Source: Cupriavidus sp. WGlv3
GTDB lineage: Bacteria; Pseudomonadota; Gammaproteobacteria; Burkholderiales; Burkholderiaceae
Assembly: GCF_023952475.1 (NCBI RefSeq)
Contig: NZ_JALHRX010000001.1
Location: 434,001-498,000 of the forward strand
Length of the DNA stretch: 64,000 nt
Direction: 5' to 3'
Position numbers and translations under genes: made by a program. Below are positions 1 through 7,729 of this stretch, piece after piece. How positions within the stretch are numbered: position 1 is the stretch's first letter; every line of letters begins with the position of its first letter. The notes beneath the pieces are model-generated. The model was not told where the DNA came from, did not search any database, and saw only the letters and a list, made by a program, of their open reading frames with translations.

Positions 1-708
1 CTTGAGCAGCGCATAGGTGGTGGCAACGGCGGCGGTGACGACCGGCTTGCCGGTCATGGCCTCGACCTTCGCTACCGCCGGCAGCGACGGCATCTGCACG
101 CAGGCCGACAGCACGATCACGTCGGCATCGGCGGTGTTCATCTGCGCAACGATCTCCGGCAGCCTGGCCGGGTCATGGCGGCCGACCTCCAGGTTGTCGG
201 GGATCTCCAGCGCGCGGTAGTCGACCACCTCGTAGCCTTCATTGCGGATGTAGTCCACCACCAGTTCGGTCAGCGGCTTCATGTACGGCGCCACCACCGC
301 GATGCGCTTCGCGCCCATCACCTTGAGCGCATCGACCAGCGCACCGGCGCTGGTGATCACCGGCGCGTCGCCGCCGTTCTCGGCGGTATGCGCCTGCAGG
401 CGCTGCTCGGAGACACGGTGGTAGCCGTGGCCCATCGCCATGATCGCCACCAGGCAGGCGTAGCCGAGCACGTCGACGCGGGCGTCGCTCAGTTCCACCG
501 CGCAGCGGTCGGATTCCGCATCCATCGCGGCCAGTTCTTCCTTGACCACCTTCTTCATCCGCATCCGGCTCGAGTGGAAGGTGAAGCGCTCCGGGCGCAC
601 CAGCTGGCGCGCGGCCAGCATCGCCGGGATCTCGGTTTCCATGGTGGTGTTGGAGCTCGGCACGATCTGGCCGATTCGGAAAACTGTCTGCACTGTCGAC
701 TCCGTCAT
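1..708 (-). CDS. nicE: Maleate cis-trans isomerase (NicE/MaiA type), 3' end cut by window edge
   Basis: Asp/Glu racemase-superfamily protein that should isomerise maleate to fumarate, the last step of nicotinate breakdown by the maleamate route. The start is the ATG whose first base is 708, preceded by an AAGGG ribosome site about 11 nt upstream. 236 codons are visible; the family is about 250 residues, so only the last few are missing. The two catalytic cysteines expected for maleate isomerases are present at about C85 (in GYACLVA) and C203 (in SACVQMPS), and the N-terminal IGQIVPSSNTTMETE segment is characteristic. It is divergent from nicC with 361 nt between the starts. The neighbouring nicC, nicA and nicB make the nicotinate role much more likely than a stand-alone racemase. 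Confidence 0.88.
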   Translation of the reverse strand, partial: MTESTVQTVFRIGQIVPSSNTTMETEIPAMLAARQLVRPERFTFHSSRMRMKKVVKEELAAMDAESDRCAVELSDARVDVLGYACLVAIMAMGHGYHRVSEQRLQAHTAENGGDAPVITSAGALVDALKVMGAKRIAVVAPYMKPLTELVVDYIRNEGYEVVDYRALEIPDNLEVGRHDPARLPEIVAQMNTADADVIVLSACVQMPSLPAVAKVEAMTGKPVVTAAVATTYALLK

Positions 709-798
709 CTGTTTGTCTGCCCTTGGTTGCGCTTTGGTCGCGCTCGCGGTCGGTCTGCCTGCAGCAGGCCTAGGGGCCTGCATGCTGCGAACGATTGT

Positions 799-810
799 AG
801 TGTACACACT
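799..810. promoter_or_regulatory. Operator-like site A, nicE side of the nicE-nicC divergent region
   Basis: AGTGTACACACT, containing the 8-bp palindrome GTGTACAC (800-807). Its reverse complement, AGTGTGTACACT, recurs exactly at 989-1000. The site lies about 90 nt upstream of the nicE start. An inverted identical 12-mer in front of each divergent gene suggests one regulator controls both; no regulator gene is in the window, so its identity is unknown. Confidence 0.5.
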
Positions 811-925: not shown

Positions 926-2230
<1,305 letters not shown>

Positions 2231-2318: not shown

Positions 2319-2816
2319 ATGAACACGCCCCGCCCCCTGACCCTGCAGGTCAACCACGCCGAGCACACGCTGGACGTGGCGCCTGACACGCCGCTGCTCT
2401 ACATCCTGCGCAACGACCTGTGCTGCAACGGGCCCAAGTACGGTTGCGGCCTGGGCCAGTGCGGCGCCTGCACGGTGCTGGTGGACGGGCTGCCCGCGCG
2501 TTCGTGCGTGCTGCCGGTCAAGGCCGTGGTGGGCCACGCGGTGACCACGCTCGAGGGCCTGGGCACGGCACAGCATCCGGACCCCGTGCAGCAGGCGTTT
2601 ATCGAAGAACAGGCCGCGCAATGCGGCTACTGCCTGAACGGCATGATCATGACCGCCAAGGCGCTGCTGGCGCAGAACCCCGATCCCGACGAAGCCCAGA
2701 TCCGCGAAGCCTTGCGCTTCAACCTGTGCCGTTGCGGCACGCATGTGGAAATCGTGCGCGCGGTCAGACGGGCCGCGGTGCTGCAGCGGCAGGCCGCACA
2801 AGGGGCAGCGTCGTGA
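2319..2816 (+). CDS. nicA: Nicotinate dehydrogenase small subunit, two [2Fe-2S] clusters
   Basis: Iron-sulfur subunit of nicotinate hydroxylase, which converts nicotinate to 6-hydroxynicotinate and passes electrons to NicB. 165 residues. The plant-type ferredoxin cluster ligands are C43, C48, C51 and C63 (CGLGQCGAC then C). The second, helical cluster ligands are C102, C105 (CGYC), C137 and C139 (CRC). All eight are present, as in isoquinoline/xanthine oxidase-type small subunits. No strong ribosome site is visible before ATG 2319. The stop codon overlaps the GTG start of nicB by four bases, which indicates translational coupling. The function follows from the family and from nicC and nicB on either side. 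Confidence 0.92.
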   Translation: MNTPRPLTLQVNHAEHTLDVAPDTPLLYILRNDLCCNGPKYGCGLGQCGACTVLVDGLPARSCVLPVKAVVGHAVTTLEGLGTAQHPDPVQQAFIEEQAAQCGYCLNGMIMTAKALLAQNPDPDEAQIREALRFNLCRCGTHVEIVRAVRRAAVLQRQAAQGAAS

Positions 2817-5764
2817 GCGCCGGCATCGTGCAAGCGACGGCACCGGCCACGGCACTGGCCGCCGGACTGCCGCCGGGCGCCGCCGATTGCCTCGTGGCCC
2901 ATGTACTGACCCCCCCGGGCCTGCGCTGGGTCGGCGGCGAGCCGCTCGCGGCGCGCCTGCTGCACGCGGAGCGCGACGCCGCCCTGGCGCTGCCCGGCAT
3001 CCGCGCGGTGGTGGTCCGCAATAACTTTGCCGGCGTGGCCGCGGTCTCGGCCGCCCAGGCCGCCGACGCGGCACGGGCCCTGCGGGCGCGCTGGTCTGGT
3101 CCGCCGCGCGCCGACGCCACCCCTGCGGCGCGCCACACAGTGGCGCAACGCGGCGATGCCGCCGATGCGCTCGAACACGCCCGCGCATCCAACACGCAGC
3201 ACTACCAATGGCCACTGGCGGGCACCCGCGACGATGCCTGCTGCACCGTTGTCGCCGACTGGCGCGACGGCACGCTGACCGTATGGCTGCCCGCCACGCG
3301 CCCCGGCGCACTGCGCTCCGAGCTCGCTGCGTTGCTGGGGATCGCGCCAACGCAAGTGCAGCTGGTCTGCTGGCAAGCGCCCGACGACCGCGCCGACCCC
3401 GCGCTGCTGGCGCCGCACGCCGCCGCCGATGCGGCCCTGCTGGCCCACGCCACCGGCCAACCGGTGGTGCGCCGGCTGCGCGCCGCCGAGGTTGGCCTGG
3501 CCGAGGCCGCGCTCGATATCCGCGTCGATAGCGCACGCACCGGTGCCACCGTCGACGCCTATGCCGCCACGCTGGCGAGCGCCACGGCGCCGGCGTCGCC
3601 GCTGGCGCTGTGGCTGACCCATACGCCGGCGCCGGTGACGGACAGCATCGATGCGGGCCATGGCGGCGACGCTGCGCTGCCGCCGTATCGCATCCCGCAT
3701 GTCGAACTCGCCGTGTCCGGCGACCCGGCTGCATTCGCAGCCGCGCCGCTGACGGCAGCGCGCGCGCAGGTGTTCGCGCGCGAATCCCATCTGGACGAGC
3801 TTGCCGCCGCCAGCGACGCCGACCCGGTGGCGCTGCGCCTCGCGCATCTGGACGACCCGCGCGGTGCCGCGCTGGTGCGGCAGGTGGCCGAGCGCGCCGG
3901 CTGGCACCTGGACGCCAATGCCGCCGCGCCACGCGCCAGCTCGGCCGCGGGCAATGTGCGGCGCGGTCGCGGCTTTGCCTACGCCCACACCATCGACCAT
4001 GACGCCGGCCAGAGCTGGTCGGCGTGGGTCGCGGAAGTCGAGGTCGACGGCAGCACCGGCGAGCTGGCGGTCACGCGCGTCACGGTCGGCCACGACAGCG
4101 AATCGCTGCCGCCACCGCAAGCCGCCGCGATAACGCGCTCGATGCCGCGCTCGATCGAGCGGGACGTGGCCGCAACCGCGCTGCAGCTGACCGCCGCCAC
4201 GACGGCGTTCGACACCTGGCCGGCCGACACGCGTGTTGCCCGCGAAAGCTTGCCGACCATGCCGGCACAGGCGCTGCCGGAAGTGCGGCTGGCCGGCACG
4301 CTGGCCACGCACGATGCACTGGCTGCCGGTCCCACGGACTCGATGCCGGCGGCCGCCGCCGTCGCCAATGCCATCTTCGATGCCACCGGCGTGCGCCTGC
4401 GCAAGCCACCGTTCAGCGCCGAACGCATCCGCCTGGCACTGGCCGAGTCCAATCCCGGCAACCAACGCAAGAAGCGCGGCTGGATCGCAGCGGCGGCCGC
4501 CGCCGCGGCCGGGGTGTGCGCCACGCTGTTGCCCTGGCGCGCACCGATCGCACCGGTAGCGCCGCCCGAGCCCGGCTTCTATTCCACCGCCACGCTCGAG
4601 CGCGGCCGGCTGGTGGCCGCTGCCGGCGACTGCGCGGTCTGCCATACCGCGCCGGGGGGCGCGAAGAACGCGGGCGGCCTGCCGCTGGAAACGCCCTTCG
4701 GCACGGTCTACAGCACCAACATCACGCCGGATGCGCAGACCGGCATCGGCAACTGGTCGTTCGCCGCTTTCGAGCGCGCCATGCGCGAAGGCATCCACCG
4801 CGACGGCCGGCGCCTGTATCCGGCCTTCCCGTACACGGCCTTCGCCAAGATCAGCGATGGCGACATGCAGGCACTGTACGGCTATCTGATGTCGGCCGAG
4901 CCGGTGACATCCGCCGTGCCGCAGACGCAGCTCGCCTTTCCGTTCAACCTGCGGCCGCTGCTGGCCGGCTGGAACCTGCTGTTCCATCGCAATGAACGCT
5001 TTACGCCGGACCCGTCGCGCTCGGCGCAATGGAATCGCGGCGCGTACCTGGCCGAGGGGCTGGGCCACTGCAGTGCCTGCCATTCGCCGCGCAACGCGCT
5101 CGGCGCCGAGCAAGGCGGGCGCCGCTACCTGACCGGCGGCAGCGCCGAAGGCTGGGAAGCGCCGGCGCTGACCGCGCTGTCGCAAGCCCCGGTGCCGTGG
5201 ACCGAGGCCGCGCTGTTCACCTACCTGCGCGGCGGCTATGCGCCGCACCATGGCGCCGCCGCGGGACCGATGGCGCCGGTGGTGGAAGAGCTCGCGCAAC
5301 TGCCCGAGGACGACGTGCGCGCGATCGCGCATTACGTGGCCTCGTTCGGGGCGCCCGCACCGGCACCGTCGGTGCTGGCGGCGCAGGCGGCGCAGGTCGA
5401 ACAGCGCAGCCAGCAGGCCGCGCGCACGCTGGGCGGTCCCGCCGAACGCCTGTACCAGAGCGCCTGCGCGGTCTGCCACCAGTCGGACCAGGGCATCGCG
5501 CAGTTCGGCGTGAAGCCGTCGCTGGCGCTCAATACCAACCTGCACAGCAAGCTGCCGGACAACGTGATCCAGGTGCTGCTACGCGGCATGCCGGCACCGC
5601 CCAACAGCGAACTGGGCGCGATGCCGGGCTATGCCGACACGCTCGACGACCAGCAGATCGCGCAACTGGCGCAGTACCTGCGCGCGCGCTTTGCGCCCGA
5701 CAAACCCGCATGGCAGGACCTGGAGAACACCGTCGCGCGGCTGCGCGCGGCGCCTGCCCACTGA
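2813..5764 (+). CDS. nicB: Nicotinate dehydrogenase large subunit: molybdopterin-type domain fused to three cytochrome c domains
   Basis: 983 residues from GTG 2813, which overlaps the nicA stop. Residues 1-550 resemble the molybdopterin-binding subunit of the isoquinoline/xanthine dehydrogenase family (ARESHLDELAAA, LAHLDDPRG and the C-terminal ANAIFDATG are family landmarks). A hydrophobic segment at about 553-572 should anchor it in the membrane, followed by three heme-binding CXXCH motifs at about 607 (CAVCH), 753 (CSACH) and 885 (CAVCH). Electrons would pass from NicA through the hemes to the respiratory chain. The protein is shorter than P. putida NicB (about 1,190 residues). I cannot find the usual N-terminal GQG segment or the glutamate of the GxGEP motif near the end of the molybdenum domain, where GPTDSMP stands at about 506-512. 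Assignment is firm from context; catalytic details are uncertain. Confidence 0.85.
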   Translation: MSAGIVQATAPATALAAGLPPGAADCLVAHVLTPPGLRWVGGEPLAARLLHAERDAALALPGIRAVVVRNNFAGVAAVSAAQAADAARALRARWSGPPRADATPAARHTVAQRGDAADALEHARASNTQHYQWPLAGTRDDACCTVVADWRDGTLTVWLPATRPGALRSELAALLGIAPTQVQLVCWQAPDDRADPALLAPHAAADAALLAHATGQPVVRRLRAAEVGLAEAALDIRVDSARTGATVDAYAATLASATAPASPLALWLTHTPAPVTDSIDAGHGGDAALPPYRIPHVELAVSGDPAAFAAAPLTAARAQVFARESHLDELAAASDADPVALRLAHLDDPRGAALVRQVAERAGWHLDANAAAPRASSAAGNVRRGRGFAYAHTIDHDAGQSWSAWVAEVEVDGSTGELAVTRVTVGHDSESLPPPQAAAITRSMPRSIERDVAATALQLTAATTAFDTWPADTRVARESLPTMPAQALPEVRLAGTLATHDALAAGPTDSMPAAAAVANAIFDATGVRLRKPPFSAERIRLALAESNPGNQRKKRGWIAAAAAAAAGVCATLLPWRAPIAPVAPPEPGFYSTATLERGRLVAAAGDCAVCHTAPGGAKNAGGLPLETPFGTVYSTNITPDAQTGIGNWSFAAFERAMREGIHRDGRRLYPAFPYTAFAKISDGDMQALYGYLMSAEPVTSAVPQTQLAFPFNLRPLLAGWNLLFHRNERFTPDPSRSAQWNRGAYLAEGLGHCSACHSPRNALGAEQGGRRYLTGGSAEGWEAPALTALSQAPVPWTEAALFTYLRGGYAPHHGAAAGPMAPVVEELAQLPEDDVRAIAHYVASFGAPAPAPSVLAAQAAQVEQRSQQAARTLGGPAERLYQSACAVCHQSDQGIAQFGVKPSLALNTNLHSKLPDNVIQVLLRGMPAPPNSELGAMPGYADTLDDQQIAQLAQYLRARFAPDKPAWQDLENTVARLRAAPAH

Positions 5765-6148: not shown

Positions 6149-6196
6149 ATGTCGTATCAGTACCAGGAAGCTGTTGCAGGCGTGCTACCGGGTTAG
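6149..6196 (+). CDS. Possible 15-residue leader peptide or gene remnant
   Basis: ATG at 6149 with AGGAG 7 nt upstream encodes MSYQYQEAVAGVLPG and then stops. The strong ribosome site makes translation plausible. It lies 132 nt before the transporter start, so it could be a leader peptide or the remaining 5' end of a lost gene. I recognise no homology, and chance occurrence cannot be excluded. Confidence 0.3.
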   Translation: MSYQYQEAVAGVLPG

Positions 6197-6328: not shown

Positions 6329-7729
6329 ATGTCGTCATCCATTTCATCCATGGCCACCACGACCATCCCGGACGCCACGCTAGGCTCGGCCCCGCAGCCC
6401 AGCGCGCGCGCAGCGTCGTCGCAACCGATCACGATCGAGCAAGGCATCCGCGCGGCCGGCGTCGGCCGCTTCCAGTATCGGCTGTTCGTCATATTCGGCC
6501 TGGTGTGGCTCGCCGACGCGATGCAGGTGCTGTCGATCGGCTTCACCGCGCCGTCGATTGCGGCCACCTTCGGCATTCCGGTGCCGACGGCGCTGCAGAC
6601 CGGCACCATGTTCTTCGTCGGCATGCTGATCGGCGCGTTCGTGTTCGGCCGTCTGGCCGACCGCATCGGCCGCCGCCCGGTGCTGATGATGGCGGTGGTC
6701 ATCGACGCCATCTGCGGCGTCGCCTCGGCCTTCGCGCCGGACTTCCAGTGGCTGCTGCTGCTGCGTTTCCTGACCGGCATCGGCGTCGGCGGCACCCTGC
6801 CGGTCGACTACACCATGATGGCCGAATTCCTGCCGTCGGACCGGCGCGGGCGCTGGCTGGTACTGCTGGAGTCGTTCTGGGCGGTCGGCACCATCCTGCT
6901 GGCGATCCTGGCGCTGATCGCGGTGTCGCGCGGCGACGATGCCTGGCGGCTGATCTTCCTGGTGACCGGCATCCCGGCGCTGGTCGGCGTGGTGTTCCGC
7001 TTCTTCGTGCCCGAGTCGCCGCTCTACCTCAATAAATCGGGGCGCTCGGACGAGGCCCGCGCGGTGCTGCAGCGGGTGGCCGCGGCCAACCGCGTGGCGG
7101 TGGAGATCGGCGCGCTGCAGCCGCAGAAGATGGAGCGCAAATCGGTGTTTGCGCTGTTCGCCGCCGGTTGCCGGCGCCGCACCGTCTGCCTGCTGGCCGC
7201 GTGGATGCTGATCTCGATCGCCTACTACGGGGTCTTCGTCTACCTGCCGGTGAAGCTGGCGGGCCAGGGCTTCGGCTTCATGCGCGGCCAGGTGTTCCTG
7301 ATCGTGCTGGCGCTGGTGCAACTGCCGGGCTTCGCGCTGGCTGCGCACGGGGTCGAGCGCTGGGGCCGCAAGCCCACCCTGATCGGCTTCCTGCTGCTGA
7401 GCGCGGCCGGCTGCATGCTGTACAGCCTGGGCCAGTCCCCGGCGCTGGTGATCGGCTCGACCCTGCTGATGAGCTTCTCGCTGCTCGGCACCTGGGGCGC
7501 GCTGTACGCCTTCACGCCGGAGGTGTATCCGACCGACCTGCGCGCCAGCGGCATGGGCACTGCGGGGGCGATGGCGCGTTTCGGCGGGCTGTTCGCGCCT
7601 TCGATCATCGCGCCCATCATGGCCAGCCAGTTCACGCTGGCACTGGCGCTGCTGTCCTCGTTCCTGGCCGTGGCGGCGCTGGCGATCTTCCTGGTCGATA
7701 TCGAGTCGAAGGACCGCGCGCTCGACTAG
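6329..7729 (+). CDS. MFS transporter, SV2/NiaP-like, probable nicotinate uptake permease
   Basis: 466-residue major facilitator protein with about 12 hydrophobic segments after a 40-residue hydrophilic N-terminus. The loop signature GRLADRIGRRPVL (about residues 108-120) and its counterpart VERWGRKPTL (about 344-353) are present, along with the PESPLYL motif at the end of the first half found in sugar-porter/SV2-like carriers. The overall pattern resembles the NiaP niacin transporter group rather than the phthalate-permease-type NicT of Pseudomonas putida. Location after nicB supports nicotinate or a related pyridine carboxylate as substrate, by inference. The leader GGTAGACAAAC immediately before ATG resembles the start of nicE. 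Confidence 0.8.
   Translation: MSSSISSMATTTIPDATLGSAPQPSARAASSQPITIEQGIRAAGVGRFQYRLFVIFGLVWLADAMQVLSIGFTAPSIAATFGIPVPTALQTGTMFFVGMLIGAFVFGRLADRIGRRPVLMMAVVIDAICGVASAFAPDFQWLLLLRFLTGIGVGGTLPVDYTMMAEFLPSDRRGRWLVLLESFWAVGTILLAILALIAVSRGDDAWRLIFLVTGIPALVGVVFRFFVPESPLYLNKSGRSDEARAVLQRVAAANRVAVEIGALQPQKMERKSVFALFAAGCRRRTVCLLAAWMLISIAYYGVFVYLPVKLAGQGFGFMRGQVFLIVLALVQLPGFALAAHGVERWGRKPTLIGFLLLSAAGCMLYSLGQSPALVIGSTLLMSFSLLGTWGALYAFTPEVYPTDLRASGMGTAGAMARFGGLFAPSIIAPIMASQFTLALALLSSFLAVAALAIFLVDIESKDRALD

Follow-up and report, generated by a model that had tools for sequence, protein, structure and literature searches.

The window analysed here, a 64,000-nucleotide stretch of the Cupriavidus sp. WGlv3 genome (contig NZ_JALHRX010000001.1, positions 434,001 to 498,000), encodes at 2813..5764 (plus strand, GTG start) a 983-residue protein, NicB2, that joins a degenerate molybdenum (Mo) hydroxylase half to a membrane helix and a triheme cytochrome c. 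The Mo half of this protein is almost certainly dead, the Mo site being supplied by NicB1, an intact 762-residue Mo subunit encoded 3.5 kb to the left of the window (C1:428194-430479, minus strand). As a whole, the data are best explained by a nicotinate hydroxylase composed of NicA, NicB1, and NicB2, in which the dead half of NicB2 would have a docking role; we regard this overall explanation as probable. NicB1 would bind the molybdenum cofactor and hydroxylate nicotinate at C6, NicA would take the electrons from Mo via its 2Fe-2S clusters, and NicB2 would hand them to the three hemes of its c-type cytochrome. Its Mo half (~550 residues) would represent a copy of the Mo subunit from which the catalytic Glu, the N-terminal cofactor module, and the GCYGRN loop have been lost, and would hold NicB1 and NicA at the membrane-anchored cytochrome. 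We infer these reaction steps from the protein family and the gene cluster; the loss of the site, the intact partner, the co-occurrence, the purifying selection, and the lack of an export signal on NicB1 are read from the sequences themselves.

A sequence-only reading of the window had described the Mo half of NicB2 as short and divergent and had offered three explanations: an active site that is built differently, a site supplied by another polypeptide, or a degrading gene.

Loss of the molybdenum site in NicB2

As that reading had stated, some 550 residues precede the membrane helix, which starts at residue 556, and the start of nicB2 overlaps the stop of nicA by four bases (GTGA, 2813-2816). 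The first heme is preceded by 513 to 648 residues in 49 NicB2 sequences (including one duplicate) versus 801 to 815 residues in 6 sequences of fused NicB (also including one duplicate), which carries an intact Mo site and the cytochrome in one chain. A lost 5' part or a frameshift in nicB2 can be ruled out, as the frame opens at the stop of nicA and the absent module has no aligned residue in any NicB2. The match to NicB2 is free of stop codons in all 40 Cupriavidus genomes that have an ortholog and is therefore not an assembly error of a single genome.

The alignment used for the comparison consists of 102 rows (49 NicB1, 5 fused NicB, and 48 NicB2, with the duplicates L171 and L175 removed beforehand), and its 256 near-invariant columns were defined from the 54 active rows, i.e., NicB1 and fused NicB. 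In this alignment, the window NicB2 has neither the GQG-type segment nor the catalytic Glu. The GHVDLGTG motif, which, like GxGE[ST], is present in 49/49 NicB1, is found in none of the 48 distinct NicB2 sequences, and in all 48 the aligned part starts no earlier than NicB1 residue 116. Of the 47 near-invariant residues of this N-terminal module, 2 persist in the window NicB2 and 3% on average across the 48 sequences, which bears out the earlier remark that no GQG-type segment can be recognised. The same reading was also right in placing the loss of the Glu near GPTDSMP (residues 506-512; 4328..4348, plus strand): this stretch stands where NicB1 has its catalytic GAGES motif, with Pro in the Glu column (AAG-PTDSMP versus GAG-ESASLP), and Glu is absent from that column in 44 of the 48 sequences. 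The CYGRN motif is found in 0/48 aligned NicB2, and the HCGDD of this loop is kept in two of them (L174 and L181).

Elsewhere in the Mo half, the window NicB2 keeps 2/22 near-invariant residues in the NPDGVRHQ segment, 1/6 in the PPLGAGE segment, 11/36 in the GCYGRN segment, 17/24 in the PNxFAHES..RHL segment, 11/13 in the LPGAPAIANALFDA..PPF segment, and about a third to a half in the remaining four. On average, NicB2 proteins retain 65% and 74% of the invariants in two segments versus 3 to 12% in the N-terminal module and the NPDGVRHQ and GAGE segments, with 28% retained in the GCYGRN segment; some residues of the dead half are invariant across 42 NicB2 sequences. In Pfam searches, the window protein scores 25.3 bits with MoCoBD_1 and 13.9 bits with MoCoBD_2, both under the cut-off of 27. 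Judged as the catalytic subunit of a Mo hydroxylase of the xanthine oxidase family, NicB2 fails on the Glu, on the GQG-type segment, and on the Pfam cut-off. It also fails as a fused NicB of the KT2440 type, there being no intact Mo domain in the chain; we take the NicAB enzyme of Pseudomonas putida KT2440 to be of the fused two-subunit type. The fused NicB proteins compared here keep both motifs, so these features are not shared by all NicB.

In the NicB2 group of L207 and L174 (genomes G109 and G440; related to Halomonas sp. PA16-9), the cofactor loop still contains HCGDD, and this group may represent an earlier stage of the loss of the Mo site.

NicB1 as the intact partner and its co-occurrence with NicB2

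NicB1 was found as a second match to NicB2 in the same genome (36%). It has GHVDLGTG at residue 76, GCYGRN at residue 405, and the catalytic Glu at residue 718, scores 95.9 and 134.9 bits with MoCoBD_1 and MoCoBD_2, respectively, and has the large subunit of the aldehyde dehydrogenase AldH as its best solved relative (8gy3_C; E value, 9.5e-52). A structural model of NicB1 has a mean predicted local distance difference test score (pLDDT) of 77.1. Genes of the nicD, nicX, and nicF types and a nicE gene running across the window edge, all on the minus strand, lie between the window and nicB1. The window gene passes as a tripartite-type NicB2: it adjoins nicA, encodes a triheme cytochrome c, and has a separate NicB1 in the same nic cluster. 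The option of another polypeptide supplying the active site is thus the one that gains support, the complete site lying on NicB1.

Among 60 Cupriavidus genomes, counted by hand at thresholds of at least 44% identity for NicB2 and at least 72% for NicB1, NicB2 is found in 40 and NicB1 in 41, with all 40 falling within the 41. In the 41st genome (G042), other contigs carry fragments of NicB2. G045 (78% complete, 740 contigs) contains NicB2 pieces of 30 (N-terminal) and 411 (C-terminal) residues and shows no NicB1 match at 1e-120. In a scan with NicX, the best 80 of the 380 confirmed stretches were taken as named loci. Complete NicB2 is encoded in 41 of these 80, and NicB1 is in the same locus in 41/41 (cut by the contig end in L116). 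Such loci come from Cupriavidus, Caballeronia, Burkholderia sp. S171, Herbaspirillum, Acidovorax/Paracidovorax, Bordetella ansorpii, Verticiella, Advenella, and metagenome-assembled genomes. Four further NicX loci (L094, L102, L104, and L149) have a partial set, and the remaining 35 of the 80 contain no nicA, NicB1, or NicB2 of comparable strength within the stretch. Fused NicB is encoded in none of the 80 stretches.

NicB1 and NicB2 also occur together in genomes G109, G372, G440, and G366, in Halomonas sp. PA16-9, and in Burkholderia cenocepacia. Intact fused NicB is found in G097, G345, G094, G170, and G166 and in Neorhizobium, Pantoea, and Azospirillum; a search with NicB1 at 1e-60 in G097, G166, and G094 returned the fused gene as the sole match. 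In other genomes, the FeS, Mo, and cytochrome genes are separate. A class-wide search for further Mo relatives yielded 3 of 321 genomes.

Selection on the dead half and its origin

The dead half is under purifying selection. Pairwise ratios of nonsynonymous to synonymous substitutions (dN/dS; Nei-Gojobori method, NG86), calculated against the window sequence for 11 Cupriavidus pairs, are 0.22 to 0.37 for the dead half, 0.11 to 0.30 for NicB1, and 0.02 to 0.26 for the cytochrome half. In a tree of the shared Mo region, NicB2 forms a clade (18/18 sequences; support, 99), as do NicB1 (18/18; support, 91) and fused NicB (5/5; support, 96). The NicB2 clade spans Burkholderiales and Halomonas-type bacteria, and its attachment relative to the fused NicB clade has a support of 23. 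Judging from this tree, the dead half appears to have a single origin.

Predicted fold and topology, and a proposed docking role

Residues 1-551 of NicB2 (2813..4465, plus strand) are predicted to adopt the fold of a Mo hydroxylase large subunit that lacks its N-terminal cofactor module. When 42 NicB2 sequences are combined into a profile, it matches the Mo subunits PaoC (1.4e-27) and 8gy3_C (5.8e-20), the latter over its residues 244-769, leaving out its first ~240 residues. The AlphaFold2 (AF2) model of full-length NicB2, built from 42 sequences, has a mean pLDDT of 71.5 and a predicted template modeling score (pTM) of 0.55; pLDDT values of blocks are mostly 71 to 96 over residues 21-430, with dips to 47 to 60 at 261-280 and 371-380, and are mostly poor at residues 431-510 and across much of the cytochrome. 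Because of the poor cytochrome part, the fold comparison used the N-terminal half of the model, for which VIA gave 1sij (Z score, 23.3; root mean square deviation, 4.4; 456 residues) and 1n60_E (Z score, 23.2). The model thus predicts that the large-subunit fold is kept in the dead half.

The most hydrophobic stretch of NicB2 starts at residue 556, following an RKKR sequence, and the membrane helix is assigned to residues 556-574 (4478..4534, plus strand), with its N-terminal side predicted to be cytoplasmic. The triheme cytochrome c part (residues 592-983; 4586..5764, plus strand) has CXXCH motifs at residues 607, 753, and 885, and its closest solved structure is the cytochrome subunit of the Gluconobacter aldehyde dehydrogenase (8gy3_A; E value, 6.9e-102); a second triheme match in the same genome is on contig C57 (42%). 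As attachment of c-type hemes takes place in the periplasm and RKKR lies ahead of the helix, the N-terminal half of NicB2 is expected in the cytoplasm.

Signals for twin-arginine translocation (Tat) were called by a simple rule made for this analysis, twin arginine plus a hydrophobic core. By this rule, a Tat-like signal is present on the Mo subunit in 21/21 loci with a separate triheme cytochrome, in 0/8 fused NicB, and in 0/49 NicB1; it is also present in 14/14 further Mo relatives with no cytochrome gene found nearby. Five NicB1 N termini (L126, L139, L149, L151, and L153; e.g., TRRELLARDGRLVVVRQP) have RR without the hydrophobic core in the position of the Tat signal of their relatives, apparently the remnant of a decayed export signal.

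NicB1 and NicA would accordingly be expected to stay in the cytoplasm, with the dead half facing the same compartment; no other large part of the cytochrome subunit would then share that compartment with them. We slightly favor the view that the dead half docks NicB1 and NicA to the membrane-anchored cytochrome. A broader proposal, in which a Mo hydroxylase that lost Tat export keeps its link to respiration through a dead copy of itself acting as a cytoplasmic dock, with electrons crossing the membrane by an undescribed route, is put forward more tentatively, as a possibility that we rate somewhat below even. A retained dead half would make NicB2 a carrier of a pseudoenzyme within a respiratory complex, and its link to the loss of Tat raises the questions of on which side of the membrane nicotinate is hydroxylated and by which route electrons reach the periplasmic hemes.

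Alternative explanations

Several observations weigh against a dead docking half. Glu is aligned at the catalytic column in 4/48 NicB2 (L131, L134, L135, and L174), without GxG ahead of it; in L174, a GGGES sequence is found ~50 residues upstream of the aligned Glu position. The dead half evolves fast, with 29 to 43% identity in tblastn pieces outside Cupriavidus, and it is short in B. cenocepacia (<500 residues before the first heme), so much of it is free to change. The cytochrome tree mixes NicB2 with fused NicB (support, 42). The Tat positives are clustered, 12/21 coming from genus g39 and 4/21 from Cupriavidus, and the gene behind one of the 21 (L261) is interrupted. Finally, placing NicB1 and NicA in the cytoplasm and the hemes in the periplasm leaves no visible path for electrons across the membrane, a puzzle that applies equally to fused NicB.

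Instead of a membrane dock, the dead half might be a pseudo-dimer partner of NicB1 that regulates or stabilises it or aids cofactor insertion. The predicted Mo-subunit fold agrees with such a role, and other Mo hydroxylases form dimers; on its own, however, pairing of this kind does not account for the match with the loss of the Tat signal, and it is compatible with docking. We consider it an unlikely replacement for docking, albeit the strongest of the alternatives.

Still less probable is mere decay of the Mo half after a duplication, tolerated because the needed cytochrome half shares its start, which is coupled to nicA. The dN/dS values of the half, higher than those of NicB1 and the cytochrome half, its long branches in the tree, and its shortness in Caballeronia and Burkholderia sp. 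S171 (513 to 553 residues before the heme) as well as in B. cenocepacia are what decay would produce. Yet the half has dN/dS values far below 1, and the frames are open throughout the Cupriavidus orthologs, by which decay as the sole explanation is rejected; the residues invariant across 42 NicB2 persist, as do the two well-retained segments. Moreover, relatives have a cytochrome without a Mo-like half, so that losing the half is possible, and it is nonetheless kept across many genera and forms one clade in the Mo-region tree. The earlier suggestion of a degrading gene therefore fails as the whole story and survives in one respect, the fast evolution of the half.

That NicB2 carries a Mo site of its own made of different residues, as the earlier idea of a differently built active site would have it, is hardly credible: a preserved fold is predicted and some family residues stay, such as those in the GCYGRN segment, but the entire cofactor module is gone from 48/48 NicB2, and an intact NicB1 is present in 40/40 Cupriavidus genomes with full NicB2.

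Comparison with known systems

The split into NicA, NicB1, and NicB2 is already published. Excerpts of PMC10269826 describe a tripartite nicotinate hydroxylase in Burkholderia gladioli and Bordetella, and those of PMC4572682 give the gene order nicT-nicB2-nicA-nicC-nicE-nicD-nicX-nicF-nicB1 for Delftia acidovorans Cs1-4. These nic genes have the same order here, the difference being a plus-strand TetR-type gene that sits between nicF and nicB1 (L004:13942-14808); in Delftia, a marR gene follows beyond nicT. In the excerpts of both papers, which give names only, neither a degenerate Mo half nor a missing Tat signal is mentioned, and a literature search limited to open-licence papers found no description of a dead Mo half in NicB2. 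The retained dead half is the part that we did not find described.

The fused NicAB enzymes of Pantoea sp. At-9b, Azospirillum ramasamyi, and Neorhizobium sp. NCHU2750 resemble the Cupriavidus system in that NicA stands beside a polypeptide in which Mo and cytochrome domains follow in the same order and a Tat signal is lacking, but theirs is a single chain of ~1170 to 1190 residues with the Mo site intact. The Gluconobacter AldH (8gy3) and, by its description in excerpts of PMC10331938, the NdhS/NdhL/NdhM enzyme of Comamonas testosteroni JA1 (21, 82, and 46 kDa, respectively) likewise have 2Fe-2S, Mo, and triheme subunits. In the 21 tested loci of such three-subunit relatives, by contrast, no Mo-like half is joined to the cytochrome, and a Tat signal is found on the Mo subunit. 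The label "nicotinate dehydrogenase subunit B" could be given to genes of either sort, catalytic or dead, and NicA plus NicB2 alone would be expected to yield no enzyme.

Other features of the nic region

The nicA gene (2319..2816, plus strand) encodes the 165-residue [2Fe-2S] subunit, and its stop overlaps the nicB2 start. It is preceded by a nicC-type gene for a flavin adenine dinucleotide (FAD) monooxygenase (986..2230, plus strand; candidate start codon) and by most of a nicE-type gene (Pfam Amdase; 1..807, minus strand), whose 3' end is beyond the left edge. A nicT-type MFS transporter is encoded at 6329..7729 on the plus strand.

Between nicB2 and nicT, at 6149-6196 (plus strand), lies a 15-codon open reading frame (ORF), MSYQYQEAVAGVLPG, preceded by CAGGAG, which resembles a ribosome site. 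A similar short ORF is in a similar place in 11/19 named Cupriavidus loci with complete NicB2 (L088-L093, L095-L098, and L103, the closer ones) and was not seen in the other 8/19. It is possibly a leader peptide controlling nicT.

The genome also contains a second nicX-like gene (G000:C77:49935-50981, L169; 81% identity), in a stretch without close nicA or nicB. Similar second nicX loci in other Cupriavidus (L111, L112, L114, L117-L119, L121, and L123) carry a nicA-like gene (40 to 43%). In L263, from a plasmid of Pseudomonas sp. BYT-1, the fused nicB frame starts beside an IS6100 transposase gene and is devoid of the N-terminal GHVDLGTG module.

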